From positions 2,135,501 to 2,199,500 of the forward strand of contig NC_014365.1 of NCBI RefSeq assembly GCF_000143965.1: a DNA stretch of 64,000 nt, written 5' to 3'. Positions 26,070 through 35,265 of this stretch are shown here, in pieces. The notes under the pieces are model-generated. The model saw only the letters and a list, made by a program, of their open reading frames with translations, had not been told where the DNA came from and ran no database searches. Each line of letters begins with the position of its first letter. Positions within the stretch are counted from its first letter, which is position 1. Source of the stretch: Desulfarculus baarsii DSM 2075. Lineage in GTDB: Bacteria > Desulfobacterota > Desulfarculia > Desulfarculales > Desulfarculaceae. The translations under genes were made by a program, and so were the position numbers.

Positions 26070-26098
26070 TCGATCCGCGCCCCATCGGAGCGACATAA

Positions 26099-26115
26099 TA
26101 GCTACATGCTAGCTA
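26099..26115. promoter_or_regulatory. Inverted repeat, candidate operator of the XRE-cupin regulator
   Basis: TAGCTA-CATGC-TAGCTA is a perfect 6-5-6 inverted repeat eight bases upstream of the -35 box of the acyl-CoA dehydrogenase promoter. The same architecture and core (GCTACAT..TAGC) occurs at 32615-32631 in front of the XRE-cupin gene. A partial direct repeat (TAGCTACATTC) overlaps its right side. Confidence 0.55.
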
Positions 26116-26122
26116 CATTCCC

Positions 26123-26151
26123 TTGACGTCGCCGCCGCGATTGCATATCGT
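26123..26151 (+). promoter_or_regulatory. Predicted promoter of the acyl-CoA dehydrogenase gene
   Basis: TTGACG (26123-26128) and TATCGT (26146-26151) have a 17-base spacer and lie 32 bases before the start codon, immediately downstream of the inverted repeat. Confidence 0.45.
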
Positions 26152-26182
26152 ACCTAGAGCGGATCAAACCGGGGAGGCGACG

Positions 26183-27334
26183 ATGGATTTTCAGCTATCC
26201 ATGGAGCAAGACATTCTGCGCAAGAGCGTGCGCGATTTCGCCGAAAAGGAAATTGCGCCCCAGGCCCAACGGCTCGACGCCGACGAAGAATTCAGCATGG
26301 AAACCTTCCGGGCCATGGGCGAGCTGGGATTGTTTGGCATGATCGTCGACGAGGCCTACGGCGGTCAGGGCATGGACTACATTTCTTACATCATCGCCGT
26401 GGAGGAAATCGCTCGGATCGACGGCTCCCACGCGGCCACGGTGGCGGCGGGCAATTCGCTGGGCATCGGGCCGATTTTCTATTATGGCTCCGAGGAGCAA
26501 AAGCATAAATATCTGCCAGAGTTGTGCGCTGGCCGCGCCCTGTGGGGCTTTGGCCTGACCGAGCCCAACGCCGGCTCCGACGCCGGCGGCGCGCGCACCA
26601 CGGCCGTGCTGGACGGCGATAGCTGGCTGATCAACGGCTCCAAGATATTCATCACCAACGCCTCGACCCCGGCCTCGCTGGGCGTGACGGTGATGGCCCG
26701 CACGGGGGTTTTCCCCGACGGCCGGCCCGAACTGAGCTGCATTCTGGTCGAAAACGGCACGCCCGGTTTCGAGGCCAGGCCCATGCACGGCAAGATGATG
26801 TGGCGGGCCTCCAACACCTCCGAGCTTTATTTTGAGGACTGCCGCGTGCCGGCCACCAACATCCTGGGCCAGCGGGGCAAGGGTTTTCACCAGATGCTGG
26901 CCACCCTGGACGCGGGACGGCTGTCGATCGGGGCCATGGGCGTGGGCGGGGCCCAGGGGGCCTACGAGCTGGCCCTAAAGTACGCCAAGCAGCGTGAGCA
27001 GTTTGGCCGGCCCATCGCCGCCTTCCAGGTCAACGCCTTCAAGCTGGCCGACATGGCCATGGAGATCGAGGCCGCCCGGCTGCTGCTCTACAAGGCCTGT
27101 TGGCAAAAGGACAACCATCAGTCGTTCAGCAAGCTGGCGGCCATGGCCAAGCTCTATGCCTCGGAGGTGATGGGCCGGGTGGCCACCGAGGCGGTGCAGT
27201 TGCATGGCGGCTATGGCCTGATGCGCGAATACGACGTGGAGCGCTTTTTCCGCGATCAAAAGCTCTTGACCATCGGCGAGGGCACCAGCGAGGTGCAACG
27301 CCTGGTCATCGCCCGGCTCATCGGGGCCATCTGA
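26183..27334 (+). CDS. Acyl-CoA dehydrogenase
   Basis: The 383-residue protein has the ACAD family order: helical N-domain (FQLSMEQDILRKSVRDFAEK), middle flavin domain (WGFGLTEPNAGSDAGGARTT, then NGSKIFITNAS), and C-terminal domain with the catalytic Glu in TIGEGTSEVQRLVIARL. It oxidises the alpha-beta bond of an acyl-CoA, passing electrons to electron-transfer flavoprotein. Short- or branched-chain substrates (butyryl, isobutyryl) fit the size but are not proven. The ATG at 26183 follows GGGGAGG. It is a single-gene unit; the upstream repeat links it to the regulator of the VorDABC locus. Confidence 0.94.
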   Translation: MDFQLSMEQDILRKSVRDFAEKEIAPQAQRLDADEEFSMETFRAMGELGLFGMIVDEAYGGQGMDYISYIIAVEEIARIDGSHAATVAAGNSLGIGPIFYYGSEEQKHKYLPELCAGRALWGFGLTEPNAGSDAGGARTTAVLDGDSWLINGSKIFITNASTPASLGVTVMARTGVFPDGRPELSCILVENGTPGFEARPMHGKMMWRASNTSELYFEDCRVPATNILGQRGKGFHQMLATLDAGRLSIGAMGVGGAQGAYELALKYAKQREQFGRPIAAFQVNAFKLADMAMEIEAARLLLYKACWQKDNHQSFSKLAAMAKLYASEVMGRVATEAVQLHGGYGLMREYDVERFFRDQKLLTIGEGTSEVQRLVIARLIGAI

Positions 27335-27360
27335 TCACAAGTATTAGAAAAACAGCGCAT

Positions 27361-27383
27361 GGGGCGAGCCAGCGGCTCGCCCC
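27361..27383 (+). terminator. Strong hairpin after the acyl-CoA dehydrogenase gene
   Basis: GGGGCGAGCC and GGCTCGCCCC form a 10-bp GC-rich stem with a three-base loop, 27 bases after the stop codon. No T-tract follows. Confidence 0.5.
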
Positions 27384-27420
27384 GCGTCGTTCCGTGGCTG
27401 ACGCGCCGGCGCGAAACTGT

Positions 27421-27449
27421 TTTGACCCGGCCCGCTTGCGGCTATAATT
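27421..27449 (+). promoter_or_regulatory. Predicted promoter of the RND efflux pair
   Basis: A perfect TATAAT (27444-27449) lies 48 bases before the adaptor start. TTTTGA (27421-27426) is at 17-base spacing; TTGACC two bases further in would give a 15-base spacer. Confidence 0.45.
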
Positions 27450-27497
27450 TTGCATGAAAGCAAAAAACAACCCCGCAGCCATCAAGGACGGTCTGGC

Positions 27498-28574
27498 ATG
27501 ATCAGCCCCAAAAACCTCAAACGCATCGGCGTCATCGGCGGGGCCATCGCGCTGGCGGCGCTGATCGGCCACAGCGGCGGCCTGTTCAATTTTTCGCGCA
27601 TCGCCCCGGGCCAGGAGCCGTCGCCGCCCGGCGAAATGGTCCGGCCGGTCAGAACCATCACCGCCCAGAAAACACAGTGGCCCGAATGCTTCGAGGCCGT
27701 GGGCGCCGTGCGGCCGCGCACCGAAACCAAGGTCGAGGCCCAGATCAGCGGCAAGGTGCTCAAGGTCGAGGCCCGGCCGGGGGCCATGGTTCAACAAGGC
27801 CAGCTTTTGGTGCTTTTGGACGCCCAGCAATACGACGCCCGCCTGGGCCAGGCCCGGCAAGACCTGAACGCGGCCAGGGCCGCGGCGGTGCTGGCCCGCG
27901 CCGAGCACGGCCGCCTGGAGCGCCTGTTTCAACGCGGCGCGGCCCCCAAGCGCGATCTGGACCGGGCCGTGGAAAACCTGGCCCGGGCCCAGGCCATGGT
28001 CCAGCGCGCCGAGGATCAGGTGGAGGAGGCCCGCCTGGCCCAGAGCTACGCCAGCGTCAAGGCCCCGGACACCGGCCGCATCACCGAGCGGCTGATCGAG
28101 CCCGGCGACATCGCCCTGCCCGGCCGCACGCTGTTTTTGCTGGAGACCGGCGGAGCCCCGCGCCTGGAGGCCCTGGTGCGCGAAGGCCTGATGGGCCGGG
28201 TGCGCCTGGGCCAAGAGCTGGAAGTGGTTATCCCGGCCTTGGATAAAGCCGTCTTGGGCCGAGTGGAGGAGATCGTCCCGGCGGTGGACCCGCGCACGCG
28301 CACGTTTCTGGTCAAGGTGGTGCTGCCGCCGACCCAGGGCCTTTATTCGGGCATGTTCGGCCGGTTGCGCATCCCGGTGGGCCAGCGGCCGGTGGTGACG
28401 GTGGAGAGCGCGGCCATTGGCCGGGTGGGCCAGTTGGAGATGGTCCGCGTCAAGGACGGCGACAATTGGCGCGGAGTTTACGTGACCACGGGCCGGGCCA
28501 GGGACGGCCAGATCGAGGTGCTCTCGGGCCTGGCTGGCGGCGAGACCCTGGCCGTGGAAGGCGACCGGCCATGA
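27498..28574 (+). CDS. RND efflux periplasmic adaptor (membrane fusion protein)
   Basis: The 358-residue protein has an N-terminal membrane anchor, a biotinyl-lipoyl half motif (VGAVRPRTETKVEAQISGKV, GAMVQQGQLLVLLDAQQY), a helical hairpin, and the second half (ASVKAPDTGRITERLIEPGD) followed by a beta-barrel. It joins the inner-membrane pump to an outer-membrane channel. No lipobox is present, so it is anchored by its N-terminal helix. The ATG at 27498 follows AAGGACGG. The stop overlaps the permease start (ATGA). No TolC-like gene is adjacent. Confidence 0.92.
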   Translation: MISPKNLKRIGVIGGAIALAALIGHSGGLFNFSRIAPGQEPSPPGEMVRPVRTITAQKTQWPECFEAVGAVRPRTETKVEAQISGKVLKVEARPGAMVQQGQLLVLLDAQQYDARLGQARQDLNAARAAAVLARAEHGRLERLFQRGAAPKRDLDRAVENLARAQAMVQRAEDQVEEARLAQSYASVKAPDTGRITERLIEPGDIALPGRTLFLLETGGAPRLEALVREGLMGRVRLGQELEVVIPALDKAVLGRVEEIVPAVDPRTRTFLVKVVLPPTQGLYSGMFGRLRIPVGQRPVVTVESAAIGRVGQLEMVRVKDGDNWRGVYVTTGRARDGQIEVLSGLAGGETLAVEGDRP

Positions 28575-31500
28575 GCGAACGCGCCAATTCGGGCGGAACC
28601 GGCCTGATCGAAAAAATCGTCCGGCCCTTTTTGCAATCGCAACTGGCGGTGCTGCTGATCATCGCGGCGTTGTGCCTGGGCGCGGCGGCGATCTGGGCCA
28701 CGCCCCGCGAGGAGGAGCCGCAGATCGTGGTGCCCTTGGCCGATGTCTTCGTGCAAGCGCCGGGGGCCAGCGCCGAGGAGGTGGAAAAGCTGGTGGCCAC
28801 GCCGCTGGAGCGCCTGCTGTGGCAGATCGACGGCGTGGAGCACGTCTATTCCACCAGCATGCCCGGCCAGGCCGTGGTCACGGTGCGCTTTTTCGTGGGC
28901 CAGCCCCGCGAGGCCTCGTTGGTCAAGCTGCACAACAAGATCATGATGAACCAGGACGCCGCGCCGGCCTTGGTCAAGGGCTGGGTGGTCAAGCCGGTGG
29001 AGATCGACGACGCGCCCATCGTCACCATCGCCCTGCATTCCAACAAGCTCGACGACCATCAACTGCGCCGCGTGGCCGAGGAGGTCATGGCCCGCCTGGC
29101 CGAGACGCCAGACATCAGTCGCACGGCGGTCATCGGCGGCCGGCCCCGGGAGATCCGCGTCGAGCTGGACCCCAAGCGCCTGGCCGGCTTCCAGGTCACG
29201 CCCGAGGAGGCGCAAGCGGCCCTGGCCGGGGCCGACGCCTCGCTCAAGGCCGGCCGCTTCAACCAGGCCGACCAGGCCCTGGAGCTGACCAGTGATTCGT
29301 TTTTGACCAGCCCCCACGACGTGGCCGAGCTGGTGGTGGGCGTCTTTGACAACCGGCCGGTGTACCTGCGCGACGTGGCCACCATCACCGACGGCCCGAC
29401 CGAGGCCGTCAGCTACACGCGCATCGGCTTCGGCGCGCGGGCCTTGCGCCAGGCCGGCCGAGCGCCCGACGACTGGTCGCGTCCGGCGGTGACCATCGAG
29501 TTGGCCAAGAAAAAAGGGGCCAACGCCGTCAGCGTGGCCGATGAGATCGTCGCCCGGCTGGATGAACTGCGCGGCGCGGTCTTGCCAGGCGACGTGGAGG
29601 CCACCATCACGCGCAATTATGGCCACACCGCCCAGGCCAAGTCGGACGAGCTGATCGAATCGCTTATTTTCGCCGTGCTGACGGTGGTGGCCTTGCTGGC
29701 CTTCACCATGGGCTGGCGCGAGGCCCTGGTGGTGGCGGTGGCCGTGCCGCTGTCGTTCGCCCTGGCGCTTTTTGTAAACTATCTGTTCGGCTACACCATC
29801 AACCGGGTGACCATGTTCGCCCTGATTCTGTCGCTGGGCCTGGTGGTCGACGACCCCATCACCAACGTCGACAACATTCAGCGACATATCCTGATGGGCC
29901 GCCAGCGGCCGTTGGAGGCCACCCTCGCCGCCGTGCGCGAGGTGTTGCCGCCGGTGATCATGTCGACATTGGCCATCATCGTCTGCTTCACGCCGATGTT
30001 TTTCATCACCGGCATGATGGGCCCCTACATGGCCCCCATGGCCATCAACGTGCCGCTGACGGTGACTTTCTCCACGCTGTGGGCGCTGACGATCGTGCCG
30101 TGGCTGAGCTACAAGTTGCTGCGCGGGCGCTCGCCCCTGGCTGGCGGCGCGCCCATTGCCGCCGGAGCGCCGGCCGAGACCACGCCCGAGTGGGTGCGGC
30201 GGGGCTATCGGGCGCTGATCGAGCCATTTCTGGACCGGCGCGGGCTGCGCTGGCTGCTACTGGCGGTGATCCTGGCCCTGCTGGCCGGCAGCCTGTCACT
30301 GGTGGGTTTGCGCCTGGTGCCGCTGAAAATGCTGCCCTTTGACAACAAGAACGAGTTTCAGATCGTCCTAGACTTCCCCGAAGGCACGACCCTGGAGCGG
30401 GCCGACCGCGTCTGCCGCGATTTCGAGGCGTTTTTGGCCACCGTGCCGGAGGTCGTTGATTTCTCCACCTTCGTGGGGCTTTCGTCGCCCATCGATTTCA
30501 ACGGCCTGGTGCGGCATTATTATCTGCGCCAGGGCGGCGAGGCCGCCGACATCCGCGTCAACCTGCTGCCCAAGGACCGTCGCCAGCAGCAGAGCCACGA
30601 GATCGTCCTGCGCCTGCGGCCGGCGCTGACGGCCCTGGCCCGGCGCGCCGGCGTGAACATGAAGCTGGTGGAGACGCCGCCCGGCCCGCCGGTGCTGTCG
30701 ACCATCGTCGCCGAGGTGCGCGGCCAACCCGGCCTGACCCACGATCAGCTCATCGCCGCGGCCAAAAAGCTTTCGGCCATGCTGGCCAAGGAAGACATGA
30801 TCGTCGATATCGACGATTCCTCGCAACAGCCGCGCCAGCGCATCGATTTTGTCGTCGACAAGGAAAAGGCCGCCCTGCACGGCGTCAGCGCCCAGCGCAT
30901 CATCCAGACCATGCGCCTGGCCGTCAGCGGATCATGGCCGGCGGCCGTGCATCTGCCCAACGAACGCCAGCAGTTGATGATCCGCCTGACCCTGCCCCGC
31001 CCGGCCCGCTCCAGCATGGCCGAACTGGCCGAGACGCCGGTCAAGTCGGCTGGCGGCCAGGTCATACCCCTTGGCGAGCTGGGCGTTTTCCAGCAATTGC
31101 CGGCCGAGCAGCCCATCAACCACAAGGACCTGGGACGCGTGGTCTATGTCTACGCCGAGGCGGCCGGGCGTTCGCCGGCCACGGCCATCCTGGACATGCA
31201 ATCGCGCCTGGACGCCGAGCCGCTGGGCCCCGGCGTCAGCGTGGAGTGGGCTGGCGAGGGCGAGTGGCAGATCACCTTGCGGGTCTTCCGCGATCTGGGC
31301 CTGGCCTTTGGCGCGGCGCTGGTGGGCATCTATATTTTGCTGGTGTTGCAGACTGGCTCGTTCGCCTTGCCGGTGCTGTTGATGGTGGCCATCCCGCTGA
31401 CGATCCTGGGCATCATGCCCGGCTTCTGGCTACTCAACCTGGTGGGCGCGGCCCCGGTGGGGCCCTACGAAAATCCGGTGTTTTTCACCGCCACCAGCAT

Positions 31501-31822
31501 GATCGGCATGATAGCCCTGGGCGGCATCGTCATCCGAAACTCGCTGGTGCTGATCGAGTTCATCCAGCAGGCCATGGCCGAACGCGGACTCGATCTGCGC
31601 GAAGCCATCCTGCGTTGCGGGGCCGTGCGCTTCCGACCCATCGTGCTCACCGCCGCCACCACGGCCCTGGGGGCCTGGCCCATCACCCTGGACCCGATCT
31701 TCTCGGGCCTGGCCTGGGCCCTGATCTTCGGCCTGCTGGCCTCGACGGCCTTTACGCTGGTGGTGGTGCCGGTGGTCTATTACCTCACGCAAAAAGGCCG
31801 CCAGGGCGCAACCCAACGCTGA
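28571..31822 (+). CDS. RND-family multidrug/solute efflux permease
   Basis: The 1083-residue protein has the standard two-fold RND layout: first span near residue 20-40, a large periplasmic loop (to about 350), spans 2-6, a second loop (to about 880) and spans 8-12. The proton-relay acids are seen in LGLVVDDPITNVDNIQRH. It uses the proton gradient to expel drugs or metabolites together with the upstream adaptor. Its first loop is AcrB-like rather than heavy-metal-like; substrate is unknown. Confidence 0.94.
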   Translation: MSERANSGGTGLIEKIVRPFLQSQLAVLLIIAALCLGAAAIWATPREEEPQIVVPLADVFVQAPGASAEEVEKLVATPLERLLWQIDGVEHVYSTSMPGQAVVTVRFFVGQPREASLVKLHNKIMMNQDAAPALVKGWVVKPVEIDDAPIVTIALHSNKLDDHQLRRVAEEVMARLAETPDISRTAVIGGRPREIRVELDPKRLAGFQVTPEEAQAALAGADASLKAGRFNQADQALELTSDSFLTSPHDVAELVVGVFDNRPVYLRDVATITDGPTEAVSYTRIGFGARALRQAGRAPDDWSRPAVTIELAKKKGANAVSVADEIVARLDELRGAVLPGDVEATITRNYGHTAQAKSDELIESLIFAVLTVVALLAFTMGWREALVVAVAVPLSFALALFVNYLFGYTINRVTMFALILSLGLVVDDPITNVDNIQRHILMGRQRPLEATLAAVREVLPPVIMSTLAIIVCFTPMFFITGMMGPYMAPMAINVPLTVTFSTLWALTIVPWLSYKLLRGRSPLAGGAPIAAGAPAETTPEWVRRGYRALIEPFLDRRGLRWLLLAVILALLAGSLSLVGLRLVPLKMLPFDNKNEFQIVLDFPEGTTLERADRVCRDFEAFLATVPEVVDFSTFVGLSSPIDFNGLVRHYYLRQGGEAADIRVNLLPKDRRQQQSHEIVLRLRPALTALARRAGVNMKLVETPPGPPVLSTIVAEVRGQPGLTHDQLIAAAKKLSAMLAKEDMIVDIDDSSQQPRQRIDFVVDKEKAALHGVSAQRIIQTMRLAVSGSWPAAVHLPNERQQLMIRLTLPRPARSSMAELAETPVKSAGGQVIPLGELGVFQQLPAEQPINHKDLGRVVYVYAEAAGRSPATAILDMQSRLDAEPLGPGVSVEWAGEGEWQITLRVFRDLGLAFGAALVGIYILLVLQTGSFALPVLLMVAIPLTILGIMPGFWLLNLVGAAPVGPYENPVFFTATSMIGMIALGGIVIRNSLVLIEFIQQAMAERGLDLREAILRCGAVRFRPIVLTAATTALGAWPITLDPIFSGLAWALIFGLLASTAFTLVVVPVVYYLTQKGRQGATQR

Positions 31823-31829
31823 AAGCGAA

Positions 31830-31873
31830 ACACCGGCCGCTCCTCGACGCTTTCGCCGATGAGCGGCCGGTGT
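31830..31873. terminator. Bidirectional hairpin between the RND permease and XRE-cupin genes
   Basis: ACACCGGCCGCTC (31830-31842) pairs perfectly with GAGCGGCCGGTGT (31861-31873), a 13-bp stem with an 18-base loop, between convergent genes. Confidence 0.65.
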
Positions 31874-31905
31874 CGCCTTTGGCCTAAAAGATCGCGTTGC
31901 CGGGG

Positions 31906-32592
31906 CTATTTGCTGGTGAGCACCGCCAGGATGCGCGCCGGTTGATCGCCCAGCGCCCGCACGTAGTGGGGCGCGCCCGAGTCGTAGTAGATCGAATCGC
32001 CCGGCTCCAAGACTTCGCGCACCTCGCCGACCACGGCCTCCATGCTGCCCTCCAGCACGAAGATGAACTCCTGGCCGTCATGCTGCGAGGCGGGTTTGGC
32101 CTCGGCGTGGGGATGGAGCGTGACCACGAAGGGCTCCATGGCCCGGTTGGCCTTGGCTGCGGCCAGATGCTCGTAGGAGTAGCCATAAGAGGTGTCGGCG
32201 TCGCCGGCGCGGCGGCTGATCGGCTGACGCTGGCTGGCCCGCACCACGGCGTGGGCCGCCTGGGCCCCGCCGGCGATGAGCGTGCCCATCTCCGAGCCCA
32301 AGGCCTTGGCCAGCTTCATCAAAACGCCCAGCGGCGGGCTGAGCCGGCCCTCCTCGATGGCCGTCAGCTCGCCTTCGGACAGGCCCGTGCGTTGCGAGAC
32401 GTCGGCCAAATCCAGGCCGCCGGCCTGGCGCAATGCCTGGATGCGTCGGGCAAGGGGCGCGTCGTCGACCTGGCTGACGCCAAGGCCGGCCACCTTCTCG
32501 ACGCCGCGCAGAAATTCCTCTTGGCCGCCGGCCCGCGACGGGGCGCATTGTTCATCGATCACGGCTGATTCGCGGTTGTCTTTGGGATCCAT
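31906..32592 (-). CDS. XRE-family transcriptional regulator with a C-terminal cupin
   Basis: The 228-residue protein has a helix-turn-helix near residues 45-100 (ARRIQALRQAGGLDLADVSQ, then RTGLSEGELTAIEEGRLSPP) and a C-terminal cupin (about 150-228) with HDGQEFIFVLEGSMEA and LEPGDSIYYDSGAPHYVRA. Cupin-linked XRE repressors usually sense a small carboxylate or metal ligand. A 6-5-6 inverted repeat 23 bases before its start suggests autoregulation, and the same repeat precedes the acyl-CoA dehydrogenase. It lies downstream of the VorDABC genes. The N-terminal about 35 residues are poorly conserved. Confidence 0.92.
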   Translation of the reverse strand: MDPKDNRESAVIDEQCAPSRAGGQEEFLRGVEKVAGLGVSQVDDAPLARRIQALRQAGGLDLADVSQRTGLSEGELTAIEEGRLSPPLGVLMKLAKALGSEMGTLIAGGAQAAHAVVRASQRQPISRRAGDADTSYGYSYEHLAAAKANRAMEPFVVTLHPHAEAKPASQHDGQEFIFVLEGSMEAVVGEVREVLEPGDSIYYDSGAPHYVRALGDQPARILAVLTSK

Positions 32593-32614
32593 AGTCCTCC
32601 CCCTTTGGGCGTTG

Positions 32615-32631
32615 TGGCTACATTATAGCCA
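32615..32631. promoter_or_regulatory. Inverted repeat, candidate operator at the XRE-cupin gene
   Basis: TGGCTA-CATTA-TAGCCA is a perfect 6-5-6 inverted repeat between the oxidoreductase gamma-subunit gene and the regulator. It shares length and core with the repeat at 26099-26115. Confidence 0.6.
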
Positions 32632-32649
32632 TATTATCGCCAGGGTGAA

Positions 32650-33207
32650 TCACTTTTTGCCCAAAGTCTCCAGCATAAAGCCGGCGCCGCGCTTGAGGGC
32701 GTCGGTGTTGATGGGAATCATGCCGTGATAACGCGGATCAAGGGCCTTGGGCAGGGCCTTGATGACGTCGCGCACCTCCAAGACCTTGCTGACCTGCACC
32801 AGCGCGCCCAGCATGACCATGTTGCCCAGGCGGGGGTTGCCCACCTCCTTGGCCAGTTCCATGGTGGGCACGAAGGTGACGTTTTTGGCCCGCGAGCTGA
32901 CGTGTTCTTCCTCGACAAGGCTGGAGTTTACAAGCAGATGGCCTTGTTTCTTGACACGTGGCCCGAATTTTTCGGCCGAGGGCCGGTTCATCACCGCGGC
33001 GGTCAGCGGCTCGTGGATGATCGGCGAGCCCACCGGGCGCTCGCTGACGACCACCGTGCAGTTGGCCGTGCCGCCGCGCATCTCCACGCCATAGACGGGC
33101 ATGTAGGTCACGTGTTTGCCGGCCTCCATGGCGGCGTAGGCCAGCATGTTGCCCATGAGCATCACGCCCTGGCCGCCGAACCCGGCGATTATGCAGTCAA
33201 AATACAT
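32650..33207 (-). CDS. 2-oxoacid:ferredoxin oxidoreductase gamma subunit (VorC/KorC type)
   Basis: The 185-residue protein begins FDCIIAGFGGQGVMLMGNML, the gamma-subunit signature, followed by YMPVYGVEMRGGTANCTVV. With the alpha, beta and delta subunits it decarboxylates 2-oxoacids to acyl-CoA and reduces ferredoxin. The ATG at 33207 follows GAGGTG; the larger open frame upstream is an antisense-phase artefact of the beta gene. It is the last gene of the delta-alpha-beta-gamma set. Confidence 0.93.
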   Translation of the reverse strand: MYFDCIIAGFGGQGVMLMGNMLAYAAMEAGKHVTYMPVYGVEMRGGTANCTVVVSERPVGSPIIHEPLTAAVMNRPSAEKFGPRVKKQGHLLVNSSLVEEEHVSSRAKNVTFVPTMELAKEVGNPRLGNMVMLGALVQVSKVLEVRDVIKALPKALDPRYHGMIPINTDALKRGAGFMLETLGKK

Positions 33208-33224
33208 CGCTTTCGCACCTCGGG

Positions 33225-33983
33225 TTAGAGCGCCTGGCGGTCTTTGAAAACGGCCAAGGGGAAGTAATCGGCCATTTCCTCGCCGACCCGCTTGTTGGCC
33301 TGCTGGGGCGTCATCTTCCAGTTGGTGGGGCAGGCCGAGAGAAACTCGACGAACGAAAAGCCCCATCTGTTCACCTGGTATTCGAAGGCCCGGTGCAAGG
33401 CCTTTTTGGCCTGCTGCAAGTTCTTGATGTTGTTGACCGCCACCCTGGCCACGAAGGCCGCGCCTTCCAGGGTGGCCAGCATCTCGCTCATGCGGATGGG
33501 CAGGCCGGCGTCGGCGGCGCTGCGGCCATAGGGCGAGGTGGTGGTGACCTGGCCTTCCAGGGTTGTCGGGGCCATCTGGCCGCCGGTCATGCCAAAGACG
33601 GCGTTGTTGACGAAAACCACGCAGATGTTTTCTCCGCGGTTGGCCGCGTGGACGATCTCGGCGGTGCCTATGGCCGCCAGGTCGCCGTCGCCCTGGTAGG
33701 TGAAAACGAAGTTTTCGGGCCGGGCGCGCTTGACGCCGGTGGCCACGGCAGCGGCCCGGCCGTGGGGGGCCTCGACCACGTCGACGTCGAAGTAGTCGTA
33801 CAAAAACACCGAACAGCCCACGCTGGCCACGCCGATGGTCTTGCCGCGCAGGCCGAAGGCGTCGAGTTGCTCGGCCACCAGGCGGTGGATCACGCCGTGG
33901 TGGCAACCGGGGCAAAAATGGGTGGCCACGTCCTTGAGGGACTGGGGCCGGTCAAAGACCTGTTGCAAAGCCGCCTCGGACAT
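33225..33983 (-). CDS. 2-oxoacid:ferredoxin oxidoreductase beta subunit (thiamine diphosphate)
   Basis: The 252-residue protein has the early [17 protein letters not shown] motif and the thiamine diphosphate-binding block [20 protein letters not shown] with [11 protein letters not shown]. It binds TPP and forms the active site at the interface with the alpha subunit. Its ATG directly abuts the alpha-subunit TAA stop. Confidence 0.93.
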
Positions 33984-35042
33984 TTAGGCCCTCCTCTTTT
34001 TCCAGGCTTTGTCCACCTCGTGGGCCAACTCGTCGGGGGTGGGGATCGACCCCGGCGGACGGCCGTAGAAATCAACCGGGGCCACGCCCTCCACGGCCAG
34101 GCGCACGTCCTCGACCATCTGGCCGGTGTTCAGCTCCACCACCATCAGATGGCCGCTCTTCTCGGCGGCGCGGCGCACGGCGGCGCTGGGGAAAGGATAG
34201 AGGGTGATCGGGCGCAACAAGCCGATCTTGCGGCCTTTTTCGCGCAGAATGTCGATGGAGGTCTTGAGGATGCGCGCCACCGAGCCAAACGCCGCCACGA
34301 TCATCTCGGCGTCGTCGGTCAGGTATTCCTCGAAACGCACTTCCTTGGCCATGCGCGCATATTTTTTGGCCAGCTTCCAGTTCTGCTCGGTCAGCTCGCC
34401 GTCGGCCAGATAGAGCGACTTGAGGATGCGCTGAGGGCGGCCCTCGTTGCCGGTCAGGGCCCAGTCTTTTTGGGGCGGCTTTTTGTGATAGGGCTTCAGC
34501 TCCACCGGCTCCTTGATCTGGCCGATCAGCGCGTCACCCAAAATGACCACGGGATTGCGATACCTGTCGGCCAGATCAAAGGCCAGGATCGTCAGATCGT
34601 AGTTTTCCTGGGCCGTGGACGGGGCCAGCACCAGGGTGCGATAGTCGCCGTGGCCGCCGCCGCGGGTGGCCTGGAAATAGTCGCCCTGGGAGGGATGGAT
34701 GCCGCCCAGGCCGGGGCCGCTGCGGCTCATGTTGACCACCACCGCCGGAATCTCCGAGCCGGCCAGGTAGCTGATGCCCTCCTGCTTGAGGCTGATGCCT
34801 GGGCTGGAGCTGCTGGTCATGGCCCGTGCGCCGGTGGCCGAGGCCCCCAGCAGCATGTTGATCGAGGCCACTTCGCTCTCGGCCTGCAAAAACACGCCGC
34901 CCACCTTGGGCAGGGTGGCGCTCATGTATTCGGGGATGTCGTTCTGAGGCGTGATGGGATAGCCGAAATAGAAGCGACAGCCCGCTTCGATGGCGCCCAT
35001 GGCTATGGCCTCGTTGCCCTTGATTAGCACTCGCCGCGCCAT
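33984..35042 (-). CDS. vorB: 2-oxoacid:ferredoxin oxidoreductase alpha subunit, VorB-like
   Basis: The 352-residue protein starts RRVLIKGNEAIAMGAIEAGC, continues FYFGYPITPQNDIPEYM and SSSSPGISLKQEGISYLAG, and ends with GQMVEDVRLAVEG and FYGRPPGSIPTPDEL. These closely match the PRK07119/VorB group, annotated as 3-methyl-2-oxobutanoate (2-ketoisovalerate) dehydrogenase. The family grades into 2-oxoglutarate (KorA) enzymes, so substrate is likely but not certain. If correct, the complex turns valine-derived 2-oxoacid into isobutyryl-CoA and reduced ferredoxin. Confidence 0.88.
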   Translation of the reverse strand: MARRVLIKGNEAIAMGAIEAGCRFYFGYPITPQNDIPEYMSATLPKVGGVFLQAESEVASINMLLGASATGARAMTSSSSPGISLKQEGISYLAGSEIPAVVVNMSRSGPGLGGIHPSQGDYFQATRGGGHGDYRTLVLAPSTAQENYDLTILAFDLADRYRNPVVILGDALIGQIKEPVELKPYHKKPPQKDWALTGNEGRPQRILKSLYLADGELTEQNWKLAKKYARMAKEVRFEEYLTDDAEMIVAAFGSVARILKTSIDILREKGRKIGLLRPITLYPFPSAAVRRAAEKSGHLMVVELNTGQMVEDVRLAVEGVAPVDFYGRPPGSIPTPDELAHEVDKAWKKRRA

Positions 35043-35043
35043 G

Positions 35044-35265
35044 TTAGCCTCGCTCCTGCTTGAAGACCCGCAGGGCCACGTCCGGGCAGAGCTGGGCGCA
35101 GAAGGCGCAACCCGTGCAGGGCTTGTCGCCGTCGTCGCTAAACTCCACGTAGTTGTAGCCCTTGGCGTTGATGTCCTGGCCCAGGCGCAGACAGCCCCGC
35201 GGGCAGGCCTCCACGCACAGGCCGCAGCCTTTACAGCGCTCGCTGATGATCGTCACCTTTGCCAT
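35044..35265 (-). CDS. 2-oxoacid:ferredoxin oxidoreductase delta subunit (two [4Fe-4S] clusters)
   Basis: The 73-residue ferredoxin-like protein carries CKGCGLCVEACPRGC and CTGCAFCAQLCPDVA, two classical [4Fe-4S] motifs that relay electrons from the alpha/beta catalytic unit to soluble ferredoxin. The ATG at 35265 (MAKVT) is the usual family start. An ATG at 35277 overlaps the fabD stop (ATGA) and would add four residues. One base separates it from the alpha-subunit gene. Confidence 0.92.
   Translation of the reverse strand: MAKVTIISERCKGCGLCVEACPRGCLRLGQDINAKGYNYVEFSDDGDKPCTGCAFCAQLCPDVALRVFKQERG

Follow-up and report, generated by a model that had tools for sequence, protein, structure and literature searches.

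The 64,000-nucleotide window of Desulfarculus baarsii DSM 2075 analysed here (part of NC_014365.1) contains two short inverted repeats, TAGCTACATGCTAGCTA (26099-26115) and TGGCTACATTATAGCCA (32615-32631), located before genes for an acyl-CoA dehydrogenase and an XRE-cupin regulator, respectively. Each repeat is part of a 28-bp array of three boxes, and such arrays also precede genes for a small protein of the DUF2080 family, from Desulfarculaceae to archaea. From these sequence comparisons, we consider it likely that a putative DUF2080 repressor, weakly MazE/AbrB-like, reads the arrays and represses its own DUF2080-GNAT operon together with a catabolic regulon. Coordinates refer to the window unless prefixed G000:C1 or called genome positions, G000 being the genome of this strain (3,655,731 bases).

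An earlier note on this DNA had described the repeats as pairs of six-base arms around a five-base spacer, with no other exact copy in the window, and had ascribed them to one common regulator. Both repeats are present at these positions, and a genome-wide scan for TRGCTA-N5-TAGCYA returned 2 matches, namely these two sites, with 0 for the reversed control; shuffles of the window gave a mean of 0.02 matches to the 6-5-6 motif even with up to 2 mismatches allowed. The repeats are thus real, but their description was incomplete. The best mismatch-tolerant matches in the genome come as pairs exactly 11 bp apart, and the unit is therefore a set of three TAGCTA-like boxes with five-base spacers, spanning 28 bp.

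Pattern searches located five such arrays in the genome. The array of the acyl-CoA dehydrogenase gene (window 26088-26115, plus strand; genome 2161588-2161615) reads GAGCGA-N5-TAGCTA-N5-TAGCTA, with boxes at 26088-26093, 26099-26104 and 26110-26115, and that of the XRE-cupin gene (window 32615-32642, minus strand; genome 2168115-2168142) reads TGGCTA-N5-TAGCCA-N5-TCGCCA, both with an 11-bp period. The others are found at genome positions 340967-340994 (AMP-ligase), 1706934-1706972 (thiolase, four boxes) and 3101540-3101567 (DUF2080-GNAT pair), the last being the top-scoring array of this genome. Weak 17-bp matches at genome positions 282132, 530199, 2856001 and 1117501-1118338 were discarded, as a 28-bp matrix gave them no support as three-box arrays; the one at 530199 lies near a metallo-hydrolase gene. 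The number of boxes differs among promoters, with six at L064 2957-3017 and four at L008 1935-1973.

The arrays are conserved in the family. Using a relaxed box pattern, and the reversed pattern on the same genomes as a control, we obtained 4-11 matches in each of 18 of the 19 same-family relatives with 2 mismatches (control, 0-2), and 5-13 in each of 18 of the 19 with 3 mismatches (control, 0-3). The sole same-family relative without an excess for either pattern, G005, also lacks DUF2080. Arrays in the relatives mostly precede genes of anaerobic aromatic and acyl-CoA metabolism, and their neighbours include genes for HGD-D/BcrAD proteins, phenylacetate-CoA ligase (PaaK), indolepyruvate:ferredoxin oxidoreductase (IorA) and aldehyde:ferredoxin oxidoreductase, as well as Had/BamA-type, TetR-EtfBA, CoA-transferase and DUF3795 genes (BamA/Had, CoA-transferase and EtfBA are among the names assigned by eye from the sequence, and not all were library-scanned). 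The neighbours in D. baarsii and its relatives fit the theme of acyl-CoA and oxo-acid catabolism that the earlier note had proposed. The occurrence of the same array five times in one genome, and its family-wide conservation, support the idea that both repeats are putative operators of one common regulator. DUF3795 genes were repeatedly seen with strong arrays (L112, L061 and L062).

Among the neighbours of the arrays, one small protein recurs; its core reads KFEVYGEEMIEKEVKQSGNSGRVYLPPEWVGKxVKIIRID. In D. baarsii it has 58 amino acids (G000:C1:3101251-3101424, minus strand), its gene precedes one for a GNAT acetyltransferase, and it matches PF09853 (DUF2080) with 31.1 bits (cut-off, 21.5) and NF033496 with 77.1 bits (cut-off, 22); PF09853 is matched by all 34 members of our DUF2080 set. 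The segment G000:C1:3101251-3101567 (L009, L065), holding the DUF2080-GNAT pair and its array, is the proposed source of the regulator. Of the 19 same-family relatives, 18 have DUF2080, as do G020, G021, G052 and G053. With a 28-bp matrix trained solely on arrays that do not adjoin DUF2080 genes, we scored 30 DUF2080 loci (some overlapping one another), 28 XRE-cupin loci and 150 shuffles. Scores of at least 22, the family-level threshold, were reached at 27 of the 30 DUF2080 loci, corresponding to 22 of the 23 matching genomes, whereas the shuffles did not exceed 8.3. The exception was G015, whose only DUF2080 is a 48% paralogue. Three DUF2080 copies (L093, L087 and L083) had no strong upstream array in this family-level scan, and paralogues may differ in specificity.

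The association extends well beyond the family. We examined 450 bp upstream of the best 80 of at least 313 DUF2080 relatives in named genomes, a non-random sample of best-scoring matches that belong mainly to Desulfobacterota and also to Thermoplasmata, Methanomassiliicoccales and Heimdall/Hodarchaeota. An array scoring at least 20 was present at 39 of the 80 loci. Control windows drawn from these loci had one in 9 of 565 cases, some lying before a second copy of DUF2080, and shuffles in 0 of 400. Thirty of these 39 loci are outside those named Desulfarculaceae or Desulfarculus-like, and merging similar upstream regions left arrays in 37 of 73 clusters. In the archaeal loci with arrays (L145, L146 and L150), 6-63 bp lie between the array and the matched region downstream of it, and GNAT genes come next; the Heimdall/Hodarchaeota loci of the 80-locus sample had no arrays. 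A GNAT gene came next after DUF2080 at 68 of 78 loci. These counts, and the presence of near-identical arrays at orthologous promoters in different genera, run against the notion that two palindromes happened to arise here by chance or that a mobile repeat left a copy at each site; although the exact 17-mers number just two in the genome, as that notion would have it, we rejected the chance pairing on account of the conservation across relatives and regard either version as exceedingly improbable.

The operator is thus conserved at the promoter of the DUF2080 gene itself. The autoregulatory signature that the earlier note had predicted does exist, from Desulfarculaceae to archaea, but upstream of the DUF2080 gene and not of the XRE-cupin gene. 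The comparisons themselves establish the arrays, how they are conserved and coupled to DUF2080 genes, the target classes and the promoter geometry, whereas we infer binding by DUF2080 and its fold, as well as cooperativity and repression. A third transcription factor might instead bind the arrays, with the DUF2080-GNAT operon as its most conserved target; arrays also accompany TetR and GntR genes in some relatives. Nevertheless, no association other than that with the DUF2080-GNAT pair holds up throughout the sampled families and into archaea, and an unlinked factor would need to co-occur with the pair over the same range, so that we hold such a factor to be unlikely.

The XRE-cupin protein, which the earlier note had named as the regulator, is the candidate nearest at hand: it belongs to a DNA-binding family, is of the same general type as the PuuR-like XRE-cupin regulators, adjoins the Vor genes, and has an array just before its gene that includes a -10-like TATAAT. 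It could, on these grounds, bind the repeats and repress or activate itself and the acyl-CoA dehydrogenase gene. Orthologues at close similarity occur in most same-family relatives and in some other genomes, and in many relatives they come directly after the Vor gamma gene. However, the conservation of the motif beside them, which the earlier note had offered as a check, was not observed: an array was found at 0 of the 28 XRE-cupin loci of relatives, with a best matrix score of 10. Arrays persist in G018, without an XRE-cupin match at threshold, and in G019, with weak paralogue-level matches only, whereas two genomes with XRE-cupin that lack DUF2080, G031 and G036, showed no consistent excess over the reversed control (2 versus 0 and 0 versus 4, respectively). 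Moreover, arrays precede DUF2080 genes in archaea. Because its orthologues keep the Vor neighbourhood without the array, XRE-cupin is most likely the wrong regulator; we rejected it as the binder, and give its control of the two sites a very small chance. Scored with the matrix, the 28 loci gave no evidence that XRE-cupin binds the arrays. Two XRE-cupin paralogues (G000:C1:3374141-3374686 and 1440593-1441111) lie beside AMP-ligase and acyl-CoA dehydrogenase genes and have no arrays.

The position of the arrays within promoters bears on the mode of action of the putative DUF2080 regulator. In 17 of 21 DUF2080 promoters, a TTGACA -35 element is at a fixed distance from the array, and the -10 element, which starts 2 bp ahead of the array, extends into the first box; in aldehyde:ferredoxin oxidoreductase genes the -10 is within the array. 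Of 51 sites, 32 had TTGAC at 10-50 bp on the upstream side of the array, and 4 had it at the mirrored position. The operator overlaps the core promoter at most promoters in the relatives, the acyl-CoA dehydrogenase and AMP-ligase genes of D. baarsii being exceptions. This layout is that of a repressor operator, and the placement of the array over the -10 at fixed spacing suggests repression. The 11-bp spacing means that the boxes share one helix face; since they are also near-palindromic, this points to a single dimer on each box and to cooperativity between adjacent dimers.

MazE-type repressors typically control their own genes through arrays of palindromic boxes. Like MazE/AbrB-type antitoxins and transition-state regulators, DUF2080 is small, and it shows a weak match at residues 35-48 (SGNSGRVYLPPEWI). 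Similarity to MazE_antitoxin (PF04014) was detected in 26 of 34 DUF2080 members (best E value, 0.0079), below the Pfam cut-off, and the D. baarsii protein scored 14.1 bits for a cut-off of 24.7; this weak match is the only hint of a fold. Unlike MazE systems, DUF2080 yields no fold match and has a GNAT partner in place of MazF, and a profile search of solved structures returned chance matches only. In the one paper that a literature search for the name DUF2080 returned, an antitoxin with this domain is among the pairs validated against nuclease toxins (PMC10440598). That result, the weak MazE similarity and the two-gene operon with operator arrays would agree with DUF2080-GNAT being a toxin-antitoxin pair, in which DUF2080 is antitoxin and autorepressor, GNAT is the toxin, and catabolic operons were recruited secondarily. 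The targets, though, are coherent catabolic operons kept across families, and nearly all Desulfarculaceae have the pair, whose distribution there is not patchy, making this origin rather improbable; as to the operator, it overlaps with the repressor role that we favour.

Several observations weigh against a DUF2080 repressor. The arrays of the acyl-CoA dehydrogenase and AMP-ligase genes in D. baarsii stop 3-7 bp short of the -35 on its upstream side, and occlusion of the -10 fails to explain these two promoters because their arrays lie there; at the acyl-CoA dehydrogenase gene the effect may be activation. The MazE similarity falls below the cut-off, as noted above. AlphaFold monomer models of DUF2080 are middling (predicted local distance difference test, pLDDT, of 68 and 72) and contain two strands only, and Foldseek searches with them matched no solved structure; because of this, the MazE/AbrB fold stays a conjecture. 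About half of the distant DUF2080 loci have no array with this matrix, so specificity may drift, and the loci sampled there were selected as best-scoring matches. Finally, array counts are uninformative in the AT-rich f4 genomes, because the reversed control is high too.

Literature searches on XRE/cupin or AbrB with aromatic regulation, and on DUF2080, did not turn up any account of this operator. In Geotalea daltonii, AbrB controls anaerobic benzene and toluene oxidation via rpoN and a TGGNA-type motif (PMC11497800); it is comparable as an AbrB-type regulator acting on anaerobic aromatic degradation, but differs in its motif and in the rpoN route, and is not a DUF2080 protein in that paper. 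According to the excerpted text on the benzene degrader ORM2a, the benzene-activation cluster encodes, along with BamQ, a GNAT and a 'transposase-associated protein', and its authors thought the latter two possibly unrelated to benzene degradation (PMC13101534). Likened by name alone, this BamQ subcluster appears to contain the gene pair seen here, next to a gene of the benzoyl-CoA pathway; unlike for the arrays here, no operator is described in that excerpt. NF033496 is itself named 'DUF2080 family transposase-associated protein', and the proposed regulator is a family member by sequence. In contrast to what this label implies, our analysis connects DUF2080 with an operator, with a GNAT gene and with a regulon of catabolic genes, and the label is most likely a mislabel.

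We propose that the operator is built from three, and at most six, palindromic boxes that resemble TAGCTA and recur at every helical turn (11 bp), and that DUF2080 dimers with a MazE/AbrB-like fold would each occupy one box, with neighbouring dimers binding cooperatively along one helix face. Bound DUF2080 would cover the -10/start region and repress the promoter, its own included. It is predicted to act on genes for the anaerobic degradation of aromatics and acyl-CoAs; in D. baarsii, these would be the genes for the acyl-CoA dehydrogenase, XRE-cupin, AMP-ligase and thiolase. More speculatively, a CoA-linked signal, perhaps acting via the GNAT partner, could relieve repression. A broader and tentative possibility is that DUF2080 constitutes a bacterial and archaeal family of transcription factors that reads TAGCTA arrays together with an acyl-CoA-sensing or -using GNAT and governs anaerobic aromatic and acyl-CoA catabolism, with GNAT operating the switch by acetylation or CoA-ester binding. 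If the DUF2080 regulon proposed here is right, a function would be assigned to a protein family of approximately 58-90 amino acids from Desulfobacterota and several archaeal groups, the operator could be searched in any genome to reveal hidden aromatic and acyl-CoA degradation genes, and anaerobic aromatic degraders would gain a testable regulator, including the gene pair apparently beside the ORM2a benzene-activation cluster.

In the window, the acyl-CoA dehydrogenase gene, a putative target (26183..27334, plus strand; 383 amino acids), encodes Pfam Acyl-CoA_dh domains, and its best NCBIfam models fall below cut-offs. Its probable sigma70-type promoter (26123..26151, plus strand), read from the sequence, comprises TTGACG (26123-26128), a spacer of 17 nucleotides and TATCGT (26146-26151); 7 bp separate the end of the array from this downstream -35. 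An RND-type membrane fusion protein and transporter pair without an array of its own lies between the two sites (27500-31822). The XRE-cupin gene, likewise a putative target (31906..32592, minus strand; 228 amino acids), encodes HTH_31/HTH_3 and Cupin_2 domains, and the TATAAT inside its array (minus strand, 32627-32622) could be a -10. Directly upstream of it, as in most relatives, is the gene for the gamma subunit of a 2-oxoacid:ferredoxin oxidoreductase (32650..33213), and the genes for the beta subunit (33225..33983), a VorB-type alpha subunit (33984..35042; NF005507 above cut-off) and a 4Fe-4S ferredoxin-type delta subunit (35044..35250) are also on the minus strand.

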